This document shows positions 3,099-48,421 of a stretch of 64,000 nucleotides of DNA, one piece after another. The position numbers and the translations under genes were made by a program. The notes beneath the pieces are model-generated. The model ran no database searches. It saw only the letters and a list, made by a program, of their open reading frames with translations, and was not told the DNA's origin. The stretch is from Desulfosarcina sp. OttesenSCG-928-A07 (GTDB lineage Bacteria; Desulfobacterota; Desulfobacteria; Desulfobacterales; Desulfosarcinaceae): NCBI GenBank assembly GCA_030267325.1, contig JAJDJS010000005.1, positions 1-64,000 of the forward strand, in the 5' to 3' direction. Each line of letters opens with the position of its first letter. Within the stretch, counting starts at the first letter, position 1.

Positions 3099-6000
3099 AT
3101 GAACGATTTTATCCATGTTTATAAGCCCACAAACAATGTCCGCATCGTCACCGCAACATCCCTGTTTGACGGCCACGACGCATCCATTAATATCTTCCGG
3201 AGAATTCTCCAGAGCTCCGGCGTGGAAGTCATTCACCTGGGGCACAACCGGGCGGTCAAGGAAATTGTGGAAGCTGCCATTGAAGAAGATGCCCAGGGCA
3301 TTGCGGTCACCAGTTATCAGGGCGGACATGTGGAATTTTTCACCTACATGGTGGACCTGCTGAGGCAAAACAATGCTGCCCATATCAAGGTGTTCGGCGG
3401 CGGCGGCGGCGTCATTGTGCCGGATGAAATCCGGGAACTGGAAGCCTATGGCGTGGCCAAGATCTACTCCCCTGAAGACGGGGCCCGCATGGGACTTCAG
3501 GGCATGGTCAACCACATGATCCAGTTGATGGATTTCTCACGGGTGGATACGTCTCCCCTGGATCTTTCGGACCTTGGGCCAGACACCAAGCTCCGGCTGG
3601 CCAACCTCATCACCACTCTGGAGCAGGCGGATGCCAAAGACCGCACAGATGCGTTCCGGCAGGTCATTCAGGAAAAAATCGGGGACCGCATCGTTCCGGT
3701 GGTGGGCATCACCGGAACCGGCGGGGCGGGAAAGTCATCCCTGACCGACGAGCTGATCCAGCGGCTGCTCCACGACATCAAGGATATCCGTATTGCCATC
3801 ATCAGCGCGGACCCCTCCCGCCGAAAGACCGGCGGTGCGCTGCTGGGCGACCGCATCCGCATGAACGCCATCAATGATGATCGTGTCTATATGCGCTCCA
3901 TTGCCACCCGGCGATCCCACACGGAAATTCCAGATTCCATGCCGGAAATTCTGAATCTGGCCAAGGCGGCCGGATATGATCTGGTCATCGCTGAAACCGC
4001 CGGCATCGGCCAGGGCGATTCCCACATCATCGACATGGTGGATGTGGCCATGTATGTGATGACCAGTGATTTTGGCGCAGCCTCCCAGCTTGAAAAAATC
4101 GACATGCTGGACTTTGCCGATCTGGTGGTGGTGAACAAGTTTGAAAAACGCGGGGGAGAAGACGCGGTGCGCGATGTCAGAAAACAGGTCCAGCGTAACC
4201 GCAATGCCTTTGAAAAGCCAACAGAAGACATGCCCGTGTTCGGCACCATTGCTTCCAAGTTCAACGATGACGGTGTCACTGCCCTGTATCACGCGCTTCT
4301 GGACACCATCAAAGAGAAAACCGGCGTGGTGTTTTCTTCTTCGCTTCCCCGGTCGACCGGCAAAACATCGAGTTCCAAAACCATCATCATTCCGCCCGAG
4401 CGTACCCGGTATCTGTCTGAAATTGCCGAGACCCTTCGGGCCTATCACCGGGAAACCGAATCCCAGGCCGATGCGGTGCGCCGGGTCTGGCACCTGAAAG
4501 AAACTGCCAAAGCCCTCAGCCGCGACCTTCTGGACAGCAGCGTGGCAGATCTCATGGTCCGCCTTAAAACCGAAATCGACCAGGCCAAATCAAGTCTGAC
4601 GGCGGAAACCCAAAGCCTGGTGGATGGCTGGGAAACCACAAAATCCGCGTATTCCGGCGACGAGCTGGTGTACAGGGTTCGCGGAAAAGAAATTCGCGTG
4701 CCCCTTTATACAGAATCCCTCTCCCACCAGAAGATTCCCAAGATCGCTCTGCCCCAGTTCAAGGATCCTGGTGAAATCTACCGCTGGCTCCGGCGGGAAA
4801 ATCTTCCCGGTTATTTTCCGTTTACCGCTGGCGTGTTTCCCATGAAGCGCGTGGGGGAAGATCCCACCCGCATGTTTGCCGGCGAAGGGGATCCTGCCCG
4901 CACCAACCGCCGATTCAAGCTGGTTTCCGAGGGAAACGATGCCAAGCGCCTGTCCACGGCGTTTGACTCAGTTACCCTTTATGGGTATGATCCGGACCTT
5001 CGACCGGACATTTACGGAAAAGTGGGAAACTCGGGCGTCAGTGTCTGTTCCCTGGATGATGTAAAGGTGCTCTACGGCGGATTTGACCTGTGTGCGCCGT
5101 CCACATCAGTTTCCATGACCATCAACGGACCGGCGCCCATCATGCTGGCCATGTTTCTCAATACTGCCATTGACCAGCAGGTGGAGAAAGCGGAGGCGGA
5201 AAAAGGCCGGGCCCTTTCGCCGGATGAATACCAAAACATCAAGGCCGTTGTGCTGAAAAATGTCCGCGGCACGGTTCAGGCTGATATTTTAAAGGAAGAC
5301 CAGGGCCAGAACACCTGCATTTTCTCCATTGATTTTGCCCTGAAAATGATGGGCGATATCCAGGCGTATTTTATTGAAAACAATGTCCGCAATTTCTACT
5401 CGGTCTCGATTTCCGGATACCACATCGCCGAAGCCGGGGCCAATCCCATCAGCCAGCTGGCCTTTACCCTGGCCAATGGCTTTACCTATCTGGAGTACTA
5501 CCTGTCCCGGGGAATGCCCCTTGACAGCTTTGCGCCGAATCTTTCCTTTTTCTTCTCCAACGGCATGGATCCCGAATACACGGTCATCGGACGGGTGGCC
5601 CGGCGAATCTGGGCCGTGGCGCTCCGGGAGAAGTATGGCGCATCCGAACGCAGCCAGATGCTCAAATACCATATCCAGACTTCCGGCCGCAGTCTTCACA
5701 GCCAGGATATTCAGTTCAACGACATCCGGACCACGCTCCAGGCTCTGTGCGCCATTTACGACAACTGCCAGAGCCTGCACACCAATTCCTTTGACGAGGC
5801 CATTACCACGCCCACGGAAGAATCGGTTCGCCGGGCCCTGGCGATTCAGCTCATCATCAACCGGGAATGGGGCCTTGCCAAGAATGAAAACCCGAACCAG
5901 GGGAGTTTTATCGTCGAAGCCCTTACCGATCTGGTGGAAGAAGCTGTCCTGATGGAGTACGACAAGATCACCGCGCGGGGCGGGGTGCTGGGGGCCATGG

Positions 6001-8843: not shown

Positions 8844-9395
8844 ATGTCCGCCGAACATAACAGCCCGCTGACCCCTGTGGGAAAGCGCATCAAAAAAATA
8901 CGGACCGACCGGAAGATGAGCTATGAATCTTTGGCCAATGATACCGGATTTTCCGTGGACTTTATCAAACAGGTGGAAGCCGGAACCCTCACCCCGCCGG
9001 TCGGCTCATTGCTTCAGATTTCCCGCGCCCTTGGCATTGACTCCGGGGATCTCCTGAAGGACGATGATGACAAAATGCAGGACCGGATTGCCGCTTATAC
9101 CACGCGAACTTCCAATTATGCCTACACCACCCTGACGCCGGGTGCGGAGAATAAGCATCTGAAGGCGTTTCGAGTGAAAATTGACGCCATGAAGGACCAC
9201 GGCGGGGTGAGTTACAACCACGCCGGTGAAGAGTTTGTCTATGTGCTTTCCGGCGCCATTGAAGTGGTGGTGGGCGAGCATGTCAACACCCTGACTGCCG
9301 GTGATTCGCTGCTGTTCAACTCCGGCATCCAGCATCTGTTAAGAAATACCGGAGACACAGACGCGGAGCTGATTGTGGTCATCTACAATCCGTAA
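8844..9395 (+). CDS. XRE-family regulator with C-terminal cupin
   Basis: The 183-residue product joins an XRE helix-turn-helix (about residues 10-65; IKKIRTDRKMSYESLANDTG followed by FIKQVEAGTLTPP) to a cupin_2 barrel (about 110-182; GVSYNHAGEEFVYVLSGAIEVVVG and LTAGDSLLFNSGIQH). Such HTH-cupin proteins are single-component sensors, often for small organic acids or CoA-linked metabolites. AGGAGG precedes the ATG. It lies between the hydroxybutyryl-CoA and acyl-CoA dehydrogenase genes on the same strand, so it probably tunes this catabolic block in addition to the TetR protein. Its ligand is unknown. Confidence 0.88.
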   Translation: MSAEHNSPLTPVGKRIKKIRTDRKMSYESLANDTGFSVDFIKQVEAGTLTPPVGSLLQISRALGIDSGDLLKDDDDKMQDRIAAYTTRTSNYAYTTLTPGAENKHLKAFRVKIDAMKDHGGVSYNHAGEEFVYVLSGAIEVVVGEHVNTLTAGDSLLFNSGIQHLLRNTGDTDAELIVVIYNP

Positions 9396-9545
9396 TCATT
9401 CCATTTCCTGTCGGATATGGCGATTTCTGCCGTGCCGGCCCTGCCTGGGTGACCCACCGTCACCTGGCCGACACGCGCAGCCGCATCGGGAAACCCTGCC
9501 GACTGTGCGCCGACCGACAGCTACCCTGTTATCAAGGATTACGCC

Positions 9546-10700
9546 ATGTCATTCAAGCTGACCGATGAACAGATGATGATTCAATCCATGGTCCGCGAGT
9601 TTTCCCGTAAAGTGCTGGCGGAAACCGCGGCGGAACGGGACAAAACAAAGGAATTTCCCGCTAAAAATCTCAAAAAAATGGCTGAACTGGGGCTTTTGGG
9701 CATGATGGTGCCCTTTGCCTATGACGGATCGGATTCGGATAGTGTGGGCTATGTGCTCGCCCTTTCCGAAATTGCCTATTCATGCGCTTCCACGGCTGTG
9801 GTGATGTCGGTTCACAACTCCATTGTCTGTGAAAGCATCCTGCATTTCGGCACAGAAGACCAGAAGCAGCATTATCTCAAAGACTTGGCGGCGGGGAAAT
9901 ACATCGGCGCCTTTGCCCTGACCGAACCCGAGGCTGGCTCTGATCCGGTAAGCCAGCAGACCACGGCGGTAAAAGACGGGAATCACTACATCATCAACGG
10001 CACCAAGCGGTTCATTTCCACGGGAAAAAACTGCGGTCTGGTGCTGGTGACTGCAAAAACCGATCCGGATGCCAGGCACAAAGGTATCAGCGTCTTTATC
10101 GTCACCAAGGACAATCCCGGCCTTGTGGTGGGCAACATGGAAGACAAAATGGGCCTTCGGGCGTCGGACACCACGGATCTGCACTTTGAAAACTGCCGGG
10201 TGCCGGCATCGGACATGCTGGGAAATCCGGGCGAGGGCTTTACCATTGTGATGAAAGGTCTGGACAGCGGCCGCATTGGTATTGCCGCCCAGAGTATCGG
10301 CGTGGCCCAGGCCGCCTTTGACGCGGCGGTAAAATATACCCGCGACCGCAGCCAGTTCGGTCAGAAGATTTCAAAATTTCAGGGAATTCGGTGGATGCTG
10401 GCAGACATGGCCACGGAAATTGAGGCGGCCCGGCAGCTCACCCTTTCCGCGGCTGCCATGAAAGACCGCAAAGAACGGTACACCACCCAAGCGTCCATGG
10501 CCAAGCTCTTTGCATCGGAAATGGTCAACCGGGTCACGGGAAAGGCGCTTCAACTCCACGGCGGATACGGGTTTACAACGGATTATCCGGTGGAGCGGTA
10601 TTACCGGGATGCGCGGGTATTTACCATTTATGAAGGCACATCGGAAATCCAGCGCATCGTGATTTCCAACAATATCTTAAAAGACAAACGCAATCCCTGA
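9546..10700 (+). CDS. Acyl-CoA dehydrogenase (short chain, butyryl-CoA-type)
   Basis: A 384-residue flavin enzyme with the full family signature: ALTEPEAGSDPVSQQTTAV, the RGRYT-like FAD/acyl contacts, QLHGGYGFTTDYPVERYYRDARVFTIYEGTSEIQR with the catalytic Glu in YEGTSE. That Glu position is typical of short- and medium-chain dehydrogenases. It desaturates acyl-CoA, here probably butyryl-CoA to crotonyl-CoA, passing electrons to electron-transferring flavoprotein (no etfAB in the window). Its place after IcmF, thiolase and Hbd supports a C4 substrate. The preceding 150 bp has an inverted repeat at 9448-9464 (GGTGAC/GTCACC) and no gene. Confidence 0.93.
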   Translation: MSFKLTDEQMMIQSMVREFSRKVLAETAAERDKTKEFPAKNLKKMAELGLLGMMVPFAYDGSDSDSVGYVLALSEIAYSCASTAVVMSVHNSIVCESILHFGTEDQKQHYLKDLAAGKYIGAFALTEPEAGSDPVSQQTTAVKDGNHYIINGTKRFISTGKNCGLVLVTAKTDPDARHKGISVFIVTKDNPGLVVGNMEDKMGLRASDTTDLHFENCRVPASDMLGNPGEGFTIVMKGLDSGRIGIAAQSIGVAQAAFDAAVKYTRDRSQFGQKISKFQGIRWMLADMATEIEAARQLTLSAAAMKDRKERYTTQASMAKLFASEMVNRVTGKALQLHGGYGFTTDYPVERYYRDARVFTIYEGTSEIQRIVISNNILKDKRNP

Positions 10701-15352: not shown

Positions 15353-16063
15353 ATGGCTGCATACAAGCGCGTTCTGCTGAAACTGAGTGGAGAAGCCCTG
15401 ATGGGCGATCAGGGCTTTGGCATTTGTCCCACCATGATGGCCTATGTGGCTGAAGAGATTCGTTCAGTGGTGGAGATGAAGGTGCAGCTGGCCATTGTGG
15501 TGGGCGGCGGAAACATTTTTCGGGGAGTGGCGGCTTCTTCATTCGGGATGGAACGAACTTCGGCAGATCACATGGGCATGCTGGCCACGGTGCTCAACAG
15601 CCTGGCCCTTCAGGATGCACTTGAAAAAACAGGTATCCAGACCCGGGTGCAGACCGCCATTTCCATGCATGAAGTGGCTGAGCCCTATATTCTGCGCCGG
15701 GCTCTTCGCCACCTTGACAAAGGCCGGGTGGTGATTTTTGCGGCTGGTTCCGGAAACCCGTATTTTACAACAGATACAGCTGCGGTACTGCGGGCCAAGG
15801 AGATTCACGCCGAGATCCTGCTCAAGGCCACCAAGGTTAACGGACTTTATGACAGTGACCCCGAACGCAACGCTGATGCGCGTTTCATCAGAACCATCCA
15901 TTATATGGAAGTGCTTGAACGACAGCTGAAAGTCATGGATATGACCGCCATTTCCCTGGCCATGGACAATCATCTCCCGCTGGTGGTATTCAACCTCAAA
16001 GAAAAGGGAAATATCCGGAAGGTGGTCAGTGGAGAAACGGTAGGAACCCTTATTGACGGTTAA
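15353..16063 (+). CDS. pyrH: UMP kinase
   Basis: The 236-residue product is a bacterial UMP kinase of the amino-acid kinase fold: [19 protein letters not shown] at the N-terminus binds [13 protein letters not shown] binds phosphate, [21 protein letters not shown] and DGLYDSDP-like NGLYDSDP follow, and [19 protein letters not shown] closes the domain. It phosphorylates UMP to UDP and forms hexamers regulated by GTP and UTP. Only 8 bp separate it from tsf, so translation is probably coupled. Confidence 0.97.
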
Positions 16064-16089
16064 CTCCTCTTCCAGGGAGGTATGCGACG

Positions 16090-16647
16090 ATGATCGATGA
16101 AACCCTTCAGGAAACCACGACGCGAATGGATAAAACCATTGATGCGCTGGAGAACGATCTCAAACGGGTGAGAACCGGAAGAGCATCGGTTTCACTTCTG
16201 GACGGCATCCGGGTTGACTACTACGGAACACAGACGCCGCTCAACCAGATGGCATCGCTTTCTGTTCCGGAAAGCCGGCTCATCATGATTCAGCCGTGGG
16301 ATGTTTCGGCCATTAAGGATATTGAAAAGGCCATTTTAAAATCCGATCTGGGCCTGACGCCCTCCAGCGACGGCAAAATTATCCGAATTTCGATTCCGCC
16401 CCTGACCGAAGAGCGGCGCAAAGAACTGGTCAAGGTGGTGAGCAAAATTTGTGAAGAGCACAAGGTGGCGGCCCGGAATATCCGGCGGGATGCCAATGAA
16501 TTGATCAAGGGTTTTAAAAAAGACGGTGATATTGCCGAGGACGATGCCTTCAAGGCCCAGGACCAGGTGCAGAAGGTCACTGATGCCTGTATCACCAAAA
16601 TCGACGCCGTCTACAAAGCCAAAGAGAAAGAAATCCTTGAATTCTGA
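16090..16647 (+). CDS. frr: Ribosome recycling factor
   Basis: At 185 residues this is a standard RRF. Recognisable blocks are [20 protein letters not shown], the loop [19 protein letters not shown], the domain II stretch [29 protein letters not shown] and the long C-terminal helix. Together with EF-G it splits post-termination ribosomes. AGGGAGG lies upstream of the ATG. The last codons overlap the probable TTG start of uppS. Confidence 0.97.
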
Positions 16648-17410
16648 CGCATCCATTGATGCGGAGGCAGCTTTTGTCCTGGAAAAACCGGGATTGAACC
16701 CGGCCCTGTTACCCCGCCATGTGGCCATCATCATGGATGGTAACGGCAGGTGGGCCAAAAAACGGCTGCTAAACCGTATCAGCGGCCATGAAAAAGGCGC
16801 GGATGCGGTCCGGACCATTGTGCGCACTGCCCGTCGGCTGGGGATTTCTGCCCTGACCCTCTACGCTTTTTCAACGGAAAACTGGCAGCGTCCCAAAGCC
16901 GAAGTATCGGGGCTTATGATACTGTTGCGCCGGTTTCTGGAAAGCGAACGCAAAACCCTGATTGAAAACGATATCCGGCTCAATGCCATCGGCCAGATTC
17001 ACAGACTGCCGGAATCGGTTCGGAATATCCTTGTTCCCGTGATGCATGAGACCGCTTCCTGCAAAGCCATGGTGCTGACCCTGGCCCTCAGTTACGGTGC
17101 CCGCGCGGAAATTGTTCAGATGGCCAAAATGATCGCCTCAGCAGCCAAAGCCGGTGCTCTTGATCCAGATGCGGTGGATGAAAAGACCATTTCCGATCAT
17201 CTGTATACCCGGGATTTGCCGGATCCGGATCTGTTGATCCGCACCAGCGGCGAGATGCGCCTCAGCAATTTTTTGCTTTGGCAGATGGCCTACACGGAAA
17301 TGGTCTTTACGCCGACCCTCTGGCCTGATTTTGATGAAGCGGAATTCATCACTATCCTGAAAACATACCAGCATCGTGAGCGTCGGTTCGGCGCGGTTGA
17401 CCCATCCTGA
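16637..17410 (+). CDS. uppS: Isoprenyl (undecaprenyl diphosphate) synthase
   Basis: A cis-prenyltransferase with [16 protein letters not shown] (catalytic Asp and diphosphate-binding Arg), [19 protein letters not shown], and the C-terminal [20 protein letters not shown] block. It makes the C55 lipid carrier for peptidoglycan and LPS. No ATG fits: the frame is open far upstream into frr, and the first plausible start is TTG at 16637, preceded by AAAGAGAAAGAAA and overlapping the end of frr by 11 bp, giving 257 residues, the family norm. A TTG further in (16692 region) is the alternative. Confidence 0.93.
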
Positions 17411-40367: not shown

Positions 40368-40407
40368 TGTATAAACCATTGACCGTTTGTATTCAAGGGA
40401 AAGGAAG
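40368..40407. repeat. 40-bp direct repeat, left copy
   Basis: TGTATAAACCATTGACCGTT followed by TGTATTCAAGGGAAAGGAAG. The right copy (42077-42116) differs at one base (39/40). The pair brackets the two-gene ATPase module. Confidence 0.85.
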
Positions 40408-40416
40408 TCGGCTTCT

Positions 40417-40965
40417 TCATGCGTTATCTTGTCCCTGTTCCGGAAGTATCAGACCATACTGCTTTGCCAGCGCATCATTGATCACCACCACGGAAGTCGG
40501 CCCAAAAGCCCAAGCTTTTACCGTTGAACGCAGCGCAATCCTCAAGGCATCCTGAAGCGGTGGCAGCCATGCATCCTCATGACCTTTAATCACCAAAACA
40601 AACTTCACGTCAGTTTGTGAAAGATCAAGTGCTTTGAACGCTTCGGGCAGTTCTGTTTTGGCAATCTGGTGTCTTTTCAGGCAGGATGCCCATCCCAGCG
40701 AAAAGGCATTGATGAGTTTTTCCCGGATTTCGGAAATGAAATTGTCAAAGTTGGGTTGGATTTGCGGACGAGGCGTGCTGGATTTGGCCTCGACGATCCA
40801 CAGGACTGGCGGTTTTCCGTTTTTGGTGCGAAGCAGCAGAAATTCCGCCATCTGGATGTGGTCTTGAATAGCCGCATAGCAGGCACTCTTCTCAATGTAA
40901 AAACATTGTCCCTCTGGATACGGGCCGAACTTCATTCCGGATTCGACAATCGCCTGTGCGGTCAT
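40417..40965 (-). CDS. Uncharacterised protein with ExK nuclease-like motif
   Basis: The 182-residue protein is not assigned to a family. Its middle reads MAEFLLLRTKNGKPPVLWIV followed by EAKSSTPRP; hydrophobic strand plus E-x-K is the second half of a PD-(D/E)xK nuclease core, with the Glu of MAEF a possible preceding acidic residue. A basic helix KLINAFSLGWASCLKRHQ and a strand VKFVLVIKGHE follow. The ATG overlaps the stop of the ATPase gene (ATGA), so the two form one unit. ATPase plus nuclease-like partner is the plan of several anti-phage systems; function here is inferred. Confidence 0.6.
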   Translation of the reverse strand: MTAQAIVESGMKFGPYPEGQCFYIEKSACYAAIQDHIQMAEFLLLRTKNGKPPVLWIVEAKSSTPRPQIQPNFDNFISEIREKLINAFSLGWASCLKRHQIAKTELPEAFKALDLSQTDVKFVLVIKGHEDAWLPPLQDALRIALRSTVKAWAFGPTSVVVINDALAKQYGLILPEQGQDNA

Positions 40966-41975
40966 TTGAGCGACAACTCCACCTCTTCTTTATAGAGCTT
41001 TATCGATTCGTCAATGATTCCATTTTTCGGTATCCCGCCCTTGAGGTTCGCGGGTGTCCAGTGGCTGTCATGCGCTGAAATGACAGGGATGGAAAAATTC
41101 TTTTCCTGTGCAATCAAAAACAGCTTCTTCACAACAAAATAGGAATGCGTGGCGAGAAAGAACTGAATGCCGCCTTCGGCCAGTACCGCCACGATATCAA
41201 GCAGTTTTGAAACTGCCGCCGGGTGCAACGCAGATTCAGGCTCATCCATAAACACAATGGATTTGTTGTCCAGATACCGATTGCCGAGCAGCGTATCGAT
41301 AATCGCAATTTTTTTGACGCCTTCTGCGGTCATACCGATGGAAAACTTCTGATTTCCCTTTTTAAAGTGCCAACGACCCGATGTCTCATCGTATTCAACC
41401 CGACCGCCCACAATATCTTCCAAATAGTTCTGTGACTTGGCAAATTCTGCGTAATTTCTTCCCATTTTGGGTGACTGGCGCAGCGCTCGGGCAAGATCAA
41501 GATAGGTATCATCAAAACCGAAGGCTTTATCCTGTTCCCGGGATTTGAGAATAATCGGGTGTAATGACAGCACTTCCTTTGCAGGCAGGAATATGGAATT
41601 GCTTGTCCTTGGATGGACATAATTTTCCAAAGATGAAATCTGTTTGGCCGTGTCCTTGCCAAAACTGTAAACAAAATTTTGCTGGTCAAATTGAACGGTA
41701 CAAGACAAGGCACTATCCGCGCCTTTGGTCACCAGATCACCAATCTTGTCCGGTTGAAAGGTCCAGTAAAGTTTTTCAGCCAGGATCTCTGCCGCTGTTC
41801 TCTGGTCATCGCCACGTCTGTATTCCTCAAGGGTCCGCATGGTGCTGTAGAAGGCTTTCAAAAGGAAGGTCTTGCCTGTGCCATTGCCGCCGATAATCAG
41901 GTTAATCAGACCAAGGCCCTGCCAATCCAGTCTGGCGAGAGGCCCGAAATTTTTCAGTTCAATTCTGTCTAACAT
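40962..41975 (-). CDS. AAA15/OLD-like ABC-type ATPase
   Basis: The 337-residue protein has Walker A GGNGTGKTFLLKAF (29-42), a coiled middle region, a signature-like FSIGMTAEGVKKIA, Walker B KSIVFMDEPESALHP and the switch His in FFLATHSYF. This is the SMC/RecF-like head of AAA15 ATPases; no TOPRIM domain follows, so it is not a full OLD nuclease. The start at 41975 has AAAGGAT 6 bp upstream. The nuclease-like gene overlaps its end by 4 bp. The unit is AT-richer than the cluster genes around it and sits between 40-bp direct repeats. Confidence 0.8.
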   Translation of the reverse strand: MLDRIELKNFGPLARLDWQGLGLINLIIGGNGTGKTFLLKAFYSTMRTLEEYRRGDDQRTAAEILAEKLYWTFQPDKIGDLVTKGADSALSCTVQFDQQNFVYSFGKDTAKQISSLENYVHPRTSNSIFLPAKEVLSLHPIILKSREQDKAFGFDDTYLDLARALRQSPKMGRNYAEFAKSQNYLEDIVGGRVEYDETSGRWHFKKGNQKFSIGMTAEGVKKIAIIDTLLGNRYLDNKSIVFMDEPESALHPAAVSKLLDIVAVLAEGGIQFFLATHSYFVVKKLFLIAQEKNFSIPVISAHDSHWTPANLKGGIPKNGIIDESIKLYKEEVELSLK

Positions 41976-42076
41976 GGCTATCCTTTCGTGTGACACGTTC
42001 TTTCTGCCCACGTCAGGTGGTGATCGTTGATGCAGTCGCTGCTCAACATGGGATATCCAATCATCAAGGTCTGGCC

Positions 42077-42116
42077 TGTATAAACCGTTGACCGTTTGTA
42101 TTCAAGGGAAAGGAAG
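42077..42116. repeat. 40-bp direct repeat, right copy
   Basis: TGTATAAACCGTTGACCGTT followed by TGTATTCAAGGGAAAGGAAG. It lies between the ATPase gene and the vapB promoter and matches the left copy at 40368-40407 in 39 of 40 positions. Confidence 0.85.
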
Positions 42117-44213: not shown

Positions 44214-46405
44214 TAGGCGCGCGGCGGCCGGACTGTTATCGCGGTCACAAAGGCGCCCAGTCCCAGAATCAGAATCCCTTTGCCATCAAGGGAATGGGGC
44301 GCGCCGCCACCTTCGCATGCCGGACAGATATCATTTTTAACCCAGTGAACCGCCGCCACTGCTGCAATGGCGGTTGCGGTGGCAAACTCGCCCACAAGCT
44401 GACGAATATCCATCATGGTGCCGGAAAATCCGGTGCGAGACAAAAACTCCTTCATCTGTGTACTGGCCATTGATCGGAACCCGCCGGGGATATTGACCAG
44501 CACGGCGCCAAAGGATGGGTTGACCGCATCCGGGCCGCCCACGCGGTCCACAAGGGATGAAATGGCATCCGGCATATGACCGGCATGATAGGCGGCAAGG
44601 GCAATCCCGATGCCGTCAGCCGAGCCTCCCGGTGTCAGCAGAATCGCGCCGCCGCCATCGGAAAGGGCATCAGATCCGGCAACAGACGGGTCAAACAGCG
44701 GCGACAGGGCGGCGTGGGCTTCATCTGCGCCCATGACCAGAATCGGCGCAGGTGAGGTCCGGGCCATGAGGCTGGCGCTGAGAAGGGCCTGCTCAAAGGA
44801 ATAATCTCCGCCCGTGGTGGTGATGTTGCCGCCTGTGGCGCCCAGATACAGGGCGGCCTGGCCTGCCGGCGCATTATGGACAGAGCCGATGAAATCCGTG
44901 GGGGAGGGGAACCGGTAGTCGGTTTCCCACAAACGAGAAAGAAAATCATGGGTTTCGGAAAGACAGCCCCAGCCTGTTCCCATACTGATGCAACCCGGTG
45001 CATGGATTTGGGTATCAGCTTGATAAATGGCGTCGGACAAAGCCAGAACAATGGCCGGCAGTCGCTTGAGACGACGGTGGGCGGCAGGGGCCAGTCGCTG
45101 CCGGATGACGGTATCGGCCAGGCATCCTTCACAGACAATATGGTCGGTCAGGGCGGAAAGGGTCTCATCCGTATGCCCTTTTCCGCTGATACAGGCGTAT
45201 TGGGTGACAATGAGGGGGGGCAGCGATGACGGTGGGTTTGGAGCGGCGGCCGATGGGTCAAATCGCCGTTTTCGTTTTCCCATCACCAAAGCGACATTGT
45301 TGCCGCCAAAGCCCAAGGCATTGGACAACACCGTGTTTACCGGCGTAAAAACCGGCGTAGTGGTTGGTGAAAGGGAAAGTTTCGGGTCAACGGTGACAAG
45401 GCCGGTATTGGCGGGAATCATACCGCGCTGGATGACCATGGCGGAAAATGCCGCTTCCAGTGCGCCTGACGCGCCCAGCGGGTGACCGGTCATTCCTTTT
45501 GTTGAGGAAACCGGCGGCGGATCATGGTTGAAAAGTGTGTTGACCGCCACCGCTTCAGCCTGGTCGTTATCCACTGTGCCGGTGCCGTGCAGGTTGATGT
45601 AATCCACTTCCCAGGGTGAAAGACCTGCCTCGGTCAGCGCCGCGATCATGGCGGAAAGCGCGCCTTCTCCTTTTGGATGGGGCGCGCTGGGATGAAAGGC
45701 ATCGCATGAAAGGCCCGCGCCCAGAATCTCAACATCTGATTCGCTTTTTGGGACATGGGACAACACCAGCATGGCCGCGCTTTCTCCCAGGGTCATGCCT
45801 TGGCGATCGGTGTCCAATGGGCGGGCACCCTTTGGATCAATGATTTTTAAAGATCGGAATCCGAAAAACGTAAGCTGGCACAGGGCATCCACACCGCCGG
45901 CCAGTACATGGCCGGCCATGTGGTGGCGGACCATCCAGGCGGCAATGGCAATGGCGGCAGCGCCGGATGCGCAGGCCGTGGACACGGTAATCACCGGACC
46001 CGTGCAGTTGTAACGCCGGGCCAGATCCGTTGCCAGGGTGCCCACGCCGTGGTGGGCATAATCTGCCGGATTGACGGAACCTTTTCTCAGCGCGATTTCC
46101 GTGGCACCCATACCGCCGGTCGTGGATCCCAGCACAATGGCGTTCACCGGACCGTTCCACCTGGCCATGGCTTCATCCGCCGCCATTCGGGCCAGTTGAT
46201 GGGTCCGGGAGACTTCAGCGTCCTGCATGAGTCCGGAAATTTCAGCCACCGGCAACGGCCCGTCCGGACCTGCCTGAAACAAAGACAAGGGTGAAAATAG
46301 CGACTTGCTACGAGCCAACGCGGAAAAGGTTTTCTCATGGCCCTGGCCTGCGGCGCTGATCATGCCCATGGCCGTGATAAAAACCGGCGAAGGGGACGTC
46401 GTCAA
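44213..46405 (-). CDS. Ketosynthase fused to chain-length-factor-like domain
   Basis: Residues 1-400 of this 730-residue protein are a FabF-type ketosynthase: C145 in VSTACASGAAAI, NLHGTGTVDND, SSTKGMTGHPLGASGALEAA, and LSNALGFGGNN. Residues about 415-730 form a second, shorter thiolase-fold half, with GCISMGTGWGCLSETHDF and FIGSVHNAPAGQAALYLGAT, resembling the 'beta-ketoacyl synthase N-terminal-like' chain length factor of aryl-polyene clusters. A catalytic Cys is not found at the expected place (GATGGNITTTGGDYS). In APE systems KS and CLF are separate subunits of a heterodimer; here one polypeptide appears to hold both. The upstream ACP stop is 4 bp from its start (overlap). Confidence 0.88.
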   Translation of the reverse strand: MTTSPSPVFITAMGMISAAGQGHEKTFSALARSKSLFSPLSLFQAGPDGPLPVAEISGLMQDAEVSRTHQLARMAADEAMARWNGPVNAIVLGSTTGGMGATEIALRKGSVNPADYAHHGVGTLATDLARRYNCTGPVITVSTACASGAAAIAIAAWMVRHHMAGHVLAGGVDALCQLTFFGFRSLKIIDPKGARPLDTDRQGMTLGESAAMLVLSHVPKSESDVEILGAGLSCDAFHPSAPHPKGEGALSAMIAALTEAGLSPWEVDYINLHGTGTVDNDQAEAVAVNTLFNHDPPPVSSTKGMTGHPLGASGALEAAFSAMVIQRGMIPANTGLVTVDPKLSLSPTTTPVFTPVNTVLSNALGFGGNNVALVMGKRKRRFDPSAAAPNPPSSLPPLIVTQYACISGKGHTDETLSALTDHIVCEGCLADTVIRQRLAPAAHRRLKRLPAIVLALSDAIYQADTQIHAPGCISMGTGWGCLSETHDFLSRLWETDYRFPSPTDFIGSVHNAPAGQAALYLGATGGNITTTGGDYSFEQALLSASLMARTSPAPILVMGADEAHAALSPLFDPSVAGSDALSDGGGAILLTPGGSADGIGIALAAYHAGHMPDAISSLVDRVGGPDAVNPSFGAVLVNIPGGFRSMASTQMKEFLSRTGFSGTMMDIRQLVGEFATATAIAAVAAVHWVKNDICPACEGGGAPHSLDGKGILILGLGAFVTAITVRPPRA

Positions 46406-46668
46406 GAGGCAGCCTCGGGCGTGTGGGTCCGGATATAATCGGCAAGGGTCCGTAAGGTGGCAAATACCTTGGCTCCCAGTTCCTTGTTGTTGATGACGAT
46501 GTGATAGTCCTTTTCAACCATGATGACCATCTCCAACACATCAATGGAATCAATGCCAAGCGGGCCCCCCACAAGGGGGTCGTCTTCCCGGATGTCCGCC
46601 GGTGTGATGCCCGGCAGGTTCAAAATATCAATGATTTTTGTTCTTAATTCGTTTAACAGGGCTTCCAT
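46402..46668 (-). CDS. Acyl carrier protein 2
   Basis: The 88-residue ACP has Ser41 in GGPLGIDSIDVLEMVIMVEK. I start at 46668 (MEALLNELRT), the family-like N-terminus; the frame runs upstream to 46770 and ATG at 46692 is another choice, neither with a strong ribosome site. It overlaps the KS-CLF gene by 4 bp. Sequence differs clearly from ACP 1 (helix II DSID versus DSMD), so the two probably serve different stages, such as starter or cargo versus elongation. Confidence 0.9.
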   Translation of the reverse strand: MEALLNELRTKIIDILNLPGITPADIREDDPLVGGPLGIDSIDVLEMVIMVEKDYHIVINNKELGAKVFATLRTLADYIRTHTPEAAS

Positions 46669-46866
46669 GGACGGTTCACTTTTGTGTGGCATGCGCGAAA
46701 GGCTATCCATTCGCTGATTTGTGAGGTCTGCATTGCTTTCTGTGGGATGAAACAGTGAGCCCACGGGCAATGCCGTTTACAGGTTTGAAAAACTATAGTA
46801 AATTCACATTTGTTTATCTGCTTTGACCGTGGTTTTCAAGACTTTCGACAGCCTTTTCCAAAACAA

Positions 46867-46939
46867 ACAGGTGCCCCATGCTGCCGGACAATGTGACCCT
46901 TGAGGATATTCTGCCCACCGGGAGGGCATGCGGCTGGTG
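46867..46939 (+). pseudogene. Truncated copy of the start of the ApeP-like dehydratase gene
   Basis: This stretch repeats 47976-48049 (the ribosome site and first codons of the dehydratase gene) with one deleted C; the frame (MLPDNVTLEDILP then TGRACGW) ends at a stop at 46938. The upstream 25 bp are also weakly alike. It and the intact copy bracket the Mrr gene, as if insertion of that gene duplicated its target. Confidence 0.85.
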
Positions 46940-47018
46940 ACCGCTGTCCTGAAAAGAGAGTTCCCAGAGTTAGGAATATGGAAAAATATGACTTTTGGAT
47001 GAATAGGGTGACACGATT

Positions 47019-47891
47019 ATGAAAATGCCGACTTTTCGCCAACTAATGGAACCCACCTTGAAAGCTTTGGATGTCCTTGGTGGCTCCGGCAGTATTGAAG
47101 AGATTGCGACAGAAGTCATCAGACAGCTTGATTTACCGGAAAGCATTACATCCCAGATGCATGATCCGGCCAGATCCAGTCAGACCGAAGTTGAATATCG
47201 TTTGGCTTGGTCGCGTACTTATCTGAAAAAATACGGACTCATTACAAATTCGGCGCGAGGTGTTTGGGTTTTCACAGACAAGTACCAGCCAGAGCAATCC
47301 TTTGATGCCGACGATGTCGTACGGCTTGTTCGAGAAAGTGTTTTATCCAAAAAAAACGATGACAGACAGCATCATTCTTCAGCGCCATTACATGATTTGG
47401 AAATCATAGAAGTTGATAATGAACTTGAAATATCTTGGAAAAATACGCTCCATCAAACGCTTCTGGGTATGAAACCAGATGCGTTTGAGCGCCTCACCAA
47501 ACGGTTGCTTCGTGAAAATGGATTTGTTCAGGTAGAGATAACCGGCCGTTCAGGAGATGGTGGAATTGACGGAAAAGGAATTTTAAAGCTTCAAAATATA
47601 TTGAGTTATCATGTCGTTTTTCAATGTAAACGTTACCAAAACAGTGTCGGGCCTGGTGCCATTCGAGATTTCCGTGGCGCAATGATTGGAAGAGCTGACA
47701 AAGGCATCTTTATTACCACGGGAACTTTTACTCGAGATGCGATCAATGAGGCTATACGCGATGGTGCGCCTGCAATTGATCTGATTGATGGCGAAACATT
47801 GGCGGAAATGCTGAAAACCTTACAGTTAGGCGTTAAAGTGGAAATGATTGAGAGTGTTGAGATCGATACCACTTGGTTTGAAAATATTTAA
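47019..47891 (+). CDS. mrr: Mrr-type type IV restriction endonuclease
   Basis: The 290-residue protein has an N-terminal winged-helix Mrr domain (about 1-110; FRQLMEPTLKALDVLGGSGS and SQTEVEYRLAWSRTYLKKYG) and a C-terminal Mrr catalytic domain with the PD-(D/E)xK-like core D184 in SGDGGIDGKG and Q202-x-K204 in VVFQCKRYQ. Mrr enzymes cut methylated DNA and respond to foreign methylation. The gene is AT-richer than its neighbours and lies between two copies of a dehydratase-gene 5' end. It interrupts the divergent promoter region of the polyketide-like cluster. Confidence 0.92.
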   Translation: MKMPTFRQLMEPTLKALDVLGGSGSIEEIATEVIRQLDLPESITSQMHDPARSSQTEVEYRLAWSRTYLKKYGLITNSARGVWVFTDKYQPEQSFDADDVVRLVRESVLSKKNDDRQHHSSAPLHDLEIIEVDNELEISWKNTLHQTLLGMKPDAFERLTKRLLRENGFVQVEITGRSGDGGIDGKGILKLQNILSYHVVFQCKRYQNSVGPGAIRDFRGAMIGRADKGIFITTGTFTRDAINEAIRDGAPAIDLIDGETLAEMLKTLQLGVKVEMIESVEIDTTWFENI

Positions 47892-47975
47892 AACTTGGGA
47901 GCCTTATTCTTTGAAGATTGAAGAAAATCTTGAGATCGTTCGAAACTTCACCTTCGGCGGTCTTTTTACAAAACC

Positions 47976-48049
47976 ACAGGTGCCCCATGCTGCCGGACAA
48001 TGTGACCCTTGAGGATATTCTGCCCCACCGGGAGGGCATGCGGCTGGTG
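47976..48049. repeat. Direct repeat: 5' end of dehydratase gene, intact copy
   Basis: This is the intact counterpart of 46867-46939. It runs from ACAGGTGCCCC before the ATG to CGGCTGGTG in codon 21; 73 of 74 positions agree, the difference being a single C. Confidence 0.85.
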
Positions 48050-48421
48050 GAAACAGTGGTGGAGCTTTCCACAGAGCGCGCGGTGACCCGGTCTGTGGTG
48101 TCTTCCAAGTGGCCCATGGCGGGGGCCCAAGGCGTGGACGCGCTGATGCTGGTGGAACTGGCCGCCCAGACCGCCGGTGTCAACAACGGCTGGAAAAACC
48201 GGCTCAAACACGGGCCCGCTGCTTATCATGTCGGATGGATTGTGGGCATCAAGTCTGCCCGGATTTTGATTGGCCGGCTGCAGATCGGCACAACCGTGGT
48301 GGTGGAATCCCGCAACCGGTTTGAGTATGATCAGTTGATGGAGGTCCACGCCATTGCCCGGATTGACGAAAAAACCGTGGCGGAGGTGGTGCTGCAGTTG
48401 ATGGAGGCGGATGCGCCATAG
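47987..48421 (+). CDS. ApeP-like hotdog dehydratase
   Basis: The 144-residue hotdog protein begins MLPDNVTLEDILPHREGMRL, the LPHxxxMxLL motif of ApeP-type 3-hydroxyacyl-ACP dehydratases with His14, and has the paired acidic residue Glu57 in LMLVELAAQTAG. Both catalytic positions are thus present, unlike its ApeI-like relative at 39733. In aryl-polyene systems two such proteins work as a heterodimer (as I recall). The ATG follows AGGTG. It leads a plus-strand operon with the ketoreductase, LolA-like, lipoprotein and radical SAM genes. Confidence 0.88.
   Translation: MLPDNVTLEDILPHREGMRLVETVVELSTERAVTRSVVSSKWPMAGAQGVDALMLVELAAQTAGVNNGWKNRLKHGPAAYHVGWIVGIKSARILIGRLQIGTTVVVESRNRFEYDQLMEVHAIARIDEKTVAEVVLQLMEADAP

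Follow-up and report, generated by a model that had tools for sequence, protein, structure and literature searches.

The locus and its genes

The stretch of DNA analysed here, 64,000 nucleotides from Desulfosarcina sp. OttesenSCG-928-A07 and hereafter called the window, contains a conserved arylpolyene-type cluster in which a pigment-type lipid gene has been hit at its start. The gene in question encodes an intact ApeP-like hotdog dehydratase of 144 amino acids (apeP, 47987-48421, + strand), and its divergent neighbour at 46402-46671 on the - strand encodes an acyl carrier protein (ACP), recognised by a PP-binding Pfam match and by its counterpart, 75% identical as a protein, at the equivalent position in the related genome G001. 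The profile matches of the apeP product are below cut-off, 20.6 of 27 bits for ApeP-like and likewise sub-threshold for FabZ, and the product is 56% identical to that of the syntenic gene of G001. In the intergenic region there is a bipartite element, TTTACA-N12-TATAGT (46776-46799), which by eye recurs as TTTACA-N12-TATAGT(A), at near-constant spacing, in the ACP/ApeP intergenic regions of most relatives. The spacing is not that of a standard sigma-70 promoter, and the element may be an operator or a promoter of an unusual type.

Between this element and apeP lies a gene of 290 amino acids (47019-47891, + strand) whose product is predicted to be an Mrr type IV restriction endonuclease. It has Pfam matches above the cut-offs to both Mrr_cat (1.6e-31) and Mrr_N (2.5e-15), matches the PADLOC profile mREase_IV (2.1e-26), and carries the PD-(D/E)XK-type nuclease motif residues D184, Q202 and K204, which do not vary across nine aligned sequences. 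Enzymes of the type IV Mrr class are defined by the cutting of modified DNA only. The protein shares both domains and the motif residues with the family of Escherichia coli Mrr, and differs in that the nearest relatives found are just 54-62% identical to it. Across 12 other genomes of the genus a close homologue occurs only in G004 (57%), at a different locus.

A repeated gene start on both sides of mrr

The mrr gene is bracketed by two copies of the start of apeP. Direct pairwise comparison shows that the left copy (46867-46939, 73 nt, + strand) equals the right copy (47976-48049, 74 nt, + strand) except for one C, with CCC on the left and CCCC on the right; the longest exact run common to both is 50 bp and there are no substitutions in the 73-bp core. 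The unit carries the ribosome site CAGGTGCCCC, in the arrangement CAGGTG...ATG, together with codons 1 to 21 of the ApeP-like frame. On the right these codons (ATG 47987) run into the intact reading frame, whereas the left copy (ATG 46878) is, because of the missing C, a frameshifted stub that stops after 20 codons at 46938-46940. An earlier reading made from the sequence only had described the repeat, its ribosome site and first codons, and the dead left copy, and each of these holds. A search of the whole genome finds the unit, which is host coding sequence and otherwise single-copy, at these two places only, with a next best match of 16 bp, so that a chance origin of the repeat is excluded.

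The insert between the copies (46940-47975) is 1,036 bp long and mrr is its sole recognisable gene. The earlier description of mrr as lying exactly between the copies needs correction, as 79 bp precede the gene (46940-47018, + strand, 40.5% G+C) and 84 bp follow it (47892-47975, + strand, 39.3% G+C), with the last 26 bp of the latter weakly resembling the upstream flank of the left copy. The G+C content of mrr is 43.2% and that of the insert 39-43%, against 58-61% in the neighbouring apeP, fabG and ketosynthase genes; its composition and its distribution together mark mrr as foreign to the cluster. No transposase or integrase gene was found in the insert among its open reading frames or by Pfam, inspection of its ends by eye gave no convincing terminal inverted repeats, and comparison of 46940-47018 with the apeP genes of relatives gave no convincing match.

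The empty site in relatives

The ACP/ApeP junction was compared in 17 relatives, all of them other species, of which the nearest is about 75% identical in DNA; a search of genome contigs returned no closer apeP relatives. In 17 of 17 the junction is single, uninterrupted and without mrr, which is what the sequence-only reading had proposed to look for, and in three (G001, G020 and G022) the cluster without mrr is collinear with that of the window, in the order radical SAM, radical SAM, radical SAM/B12, KS and ACP, then, across the divergent junction, ApeP, FabG, LolA-like and radical SAM. The same reading would have been undone by relatives that carry both copies and lack mrr, and a second copy of the relative's own apeP start is absent within 1.4 kb upstream in all 17.

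The left flank of the window aligns with the apeP upstream region of G001 (score 35, reached in 0 of 500 shuffles), and no alignment to that region is found for 47892-47975 (p 0.14). As only the left flank aligns, it is the left flank that is native, with the sequence upstream of the right copy belonging to the insert and the end of the insert lying near 47975.

Expression of apeP behind mrr

The conserved element has remained on the left side of mrr and reads into it, and mrr and apeP are co-directional and 95 bp apart. A scan for consensus signals gave no + strand terminator between the two genes and, near the right copy, a single + strand promoter-like hit, a weak sigma-70 match (9 of 12 positions) at the end of mrr. 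The suggestion that the intact copy may use a new promoter is thus unsupported. With the element left of mrr, both genes in the same direction and no terminator found, read-through is the simpler explanation, and mrr most likely, as judged from the arrangement of these signals, shares a transcription unit with apeP, with the native upstream region ahead of both.

How the gene may have entered

The repeat, its two-copy state, the foreign composition of the insert and the empty site in relatives are the observations from which any account of entry has to start. Nobusato et al. (2000) and Furuta et al. (2010) reportedly described the insertion of restriction-modification genes with long target duplication. 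Long and variable target duplications of about 100 bp, made at such genes without a known mobile element, are described in two papers (PMC3874152; PMC3031569). It is probable, though well short of certain, that mrr entered in this way. A foreign piece of 1.04 kb with the single mrr gene would have entered apeP at its 5' end, and the 73/74 bp of host sequence at the site would have been duplicated on both sides of it, by an insertion of the break-repair type, the route put forward for restriction-modification genes, in which staggered ends are filled in around the insert with no part played by a transposase. The left copy would then have lost one C and become a dead stub, with the right copy keeping apeP intact; in principle the two copies could recombine, which would excise mrr and restore the original junction. 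The likeness to the described insertions lies in the direct repeats of host sequence (about 100 bp there, 73/74 bp here), in the empty site in relatives and in the lack of a linked mobile element. The differences are that the gene here is a solitary type IV mrr with no methyltransferase, that it sits at a gene start, and that the empty site is known from other species only.

One feature fits this less well. The 26 bp of native sequence that precede the left copy (46841-46866, + strand) are about 75% like the last 26 bp of the insert (47950-47975), with an anchored p of 0.0003 to 0.006 depending on scoring in a test that was post hoc, whilst downstream of the left copy there is no comparable similarity (p 0.50, against 0.0003 upstream). 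The divergence of this extension, set against the absence of substitutions in the 73-bp core, gives a Fisher p of about 1e-4. Judged on this contrast, a plain target duplication would not predict a diverged extension beside an unchanged core. If the homology is real it is too diverged for the age of the core, and the incoming DNA would then have brought along a diverged version of the apeP upstream region and recombined at the site.

An entry assisted by homology is therefore a possible, if distinctly less probable, alternative to insertion with long target duplication. Here mrr would have arrived on a fragment or circle that also bore diverged versions of the apeP upstream region and start; this DNA would have undergone a homologous crossover at the apeP start, with the other side joined illegitimately at 46939/46940. 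The core would then be identical since, past the crossover, each copy derives from sequence of the recipient itself. The extension, which keeps register on the upstream side of the right copy and has no counterpart downstream of the left, argues for such an event, and homology-facilitated illegitimate recombination, in which one side is homologous and the other is joined without homology, is described in several bacteria (PMC3240628) and would explain it. The present case differs from those described in that no donor is identified and the homologous side is short. Furthermore, the sequence upstream of the right copy has no convincing alignment to the apeP upstream region of G001 or of most relatives, its best match being in L031 with a p of 0.008, unremarkable for 17 tests, and the idea that it is a relative's apeP promoter was rejected on these grounds. 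As the similarity test was picked after the data were seen and no donor was found, this route is kept as the main rival. The claim that the entry of mrr duplicated the gene start and spared the dehydratase accordingly stands as far as the foreign single-gene insert and the intact right copy are concerned. That the insertion itself made the duplication is less certain, because DNA identity to the closest relative reaches only some 75% and the diverged extension fits homology-assisted entry at least as well.

It is improbable that the 74-bp duplication is older and that mrr later entered between tandem copies which were already there. The compared genomes without mrr all belong to other species, which leaves room for two separate steps, but two copies are seen in none of the 17 relatives, the insert joins both copies directly, and the duplication is young, as its core has no substitutions. 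An artefact of assembly or of strain mixture is very unlikely: the draft genome is in 114 contigs and 94% complete, and may for that reason be a metagenome bin, yet the longest exact shared run of 50 bp is short for a k-mer misjoin and the locus sits on a contig of 92.9 kb. Least credible is that mrr is a cassette or element of a site-specific or transposition system with the repeats as attachment sites, as some other mrr genes that sit among such repeats might suggest (the G077 and L113 loci below), since the present repeat consists of host coding sequence and has two genomic copies, where the attC-type repeats of integron cassettes normally come in several, and the insert has neither an integrase or transposase gene nor, by eye, convincing terminal inverted repeats.

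Repeats at other mrr loci

In a survey of 104 deduplicated close Mrr genes (the window included) and 738 control open reading frames from the same loci, flanking pairs of strong direct repeats, both members within 400 bp of the gene, were found at 5/104 Mrr loci and 2/738 controls (p 0.0005). The idea that mrr is a habitual maker of long duplications was nevertheless rejected, as the repeats form an array in G077 and are dispersed ones in G060 and L159. With the window excluded and dispersed and array repeats set aside, single-copy duplications are not significantly enriched at mrr (1/103 against 2/738 control frames, p 0.32). There is one clear parallel, in a Mucilaginibacter MAG (L125), where the 3' end of pyrF and the region downstream of it are duplicated around mrr, the duplicated sequence being found twice in that genome, and the pattern as such is accordingly a real one.

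Other arrangements were seen in the course of the survey. At L274 of G077 (about 9207-10654) mrr has around it a 205-bp repeat with some 35 near-full copies, clustered for the most part near 0.79-0.97 and 3.97-4.04 Mb in what looks like a cassette array. In a Verrucomicrobia MAG (L113) mrr is flanked at about 2865-2987 and 3845-3967 by attC-like sites (GCCTAAC...GTTAGG/GTTGGG), because of which mrr may travel as an integron cassette. In a Magnetococcales MAG (L094) a 77-bp repeat of 93.5% identity (1643-1719 and 2805-2881, reverse-strand coordinates) brackets a gene for a YhgA-like putative transposase/nuclease (Transposase_31 and DUF4351) that has another mrr beside it.

A second repeat pair in the same cluster

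Under the same criteria the 64-kb window has exactly one other repeat pair, at 40368-40407 and 42077-42116 (40 nt, one mismatch), which brackets HEC-02A/B, a candidate defence gene pair at 40417-42011 (PADLOC 4.9e-160 and 7.1e-68) in the same cluster as mrr and 5 kb away from it. The right copy of this repeat is just upstream of a MazE-like/PIN toxin-antitoxin pair. Both the HEC-02 pair and the MazE-like/PIN pair are absent at the corresponding place in the three syntenic relatives, and in the matching interval of G001 a related copy of the 40-nt unit occurs once (score 20, shuffle maximum 16). A distant HEC-02A-like gene elsewhere (L345, in G217) has a 95-bp direct repeat of 84% identity in its flanks.

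Such pairs are not a habit of the genome as a whole, a possibility that was rejected when about 530 kb of stretches from elsewhere in it, with an 11-kb overlap between two of the stretches, yielded just two more. One of the two (L323, contig C38, 15385-15445 and 16920-16977) surrounds a Fic-family gene (15698-16819), which has an ABC ATPase gene on one side and, on the other, a decayed copy of part of the interior of the ATPase gene (about 88% identity over 42 nt). A general scheme in which, within this lineage, single defence modules (mrr, HEC-02 and perhaps Fic) enter conserved clusters by one common transposase-free process, duplicating 40-100 bp of host sequence, each time sparing the target and reversible by recombination, is doubtful.

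Significance

The observation made from the sequence only is borne out and was for the most part correctly interpreted, with the exact mechanism of entry split between the duplication and the homology-assisted readings. The mode of entry is already known for restriction genes, and the locus is an unusually clean example of it for a solitary one, a single restriction gene having entered the 5' end of another gene without destroying its target. The pattern of long target duplication would thereby be extended to a solitary type IV gene, and the mrr and HEC-02 repeats together offer two insertions in one conserved cluster in which mechanisms of entry may be compared.
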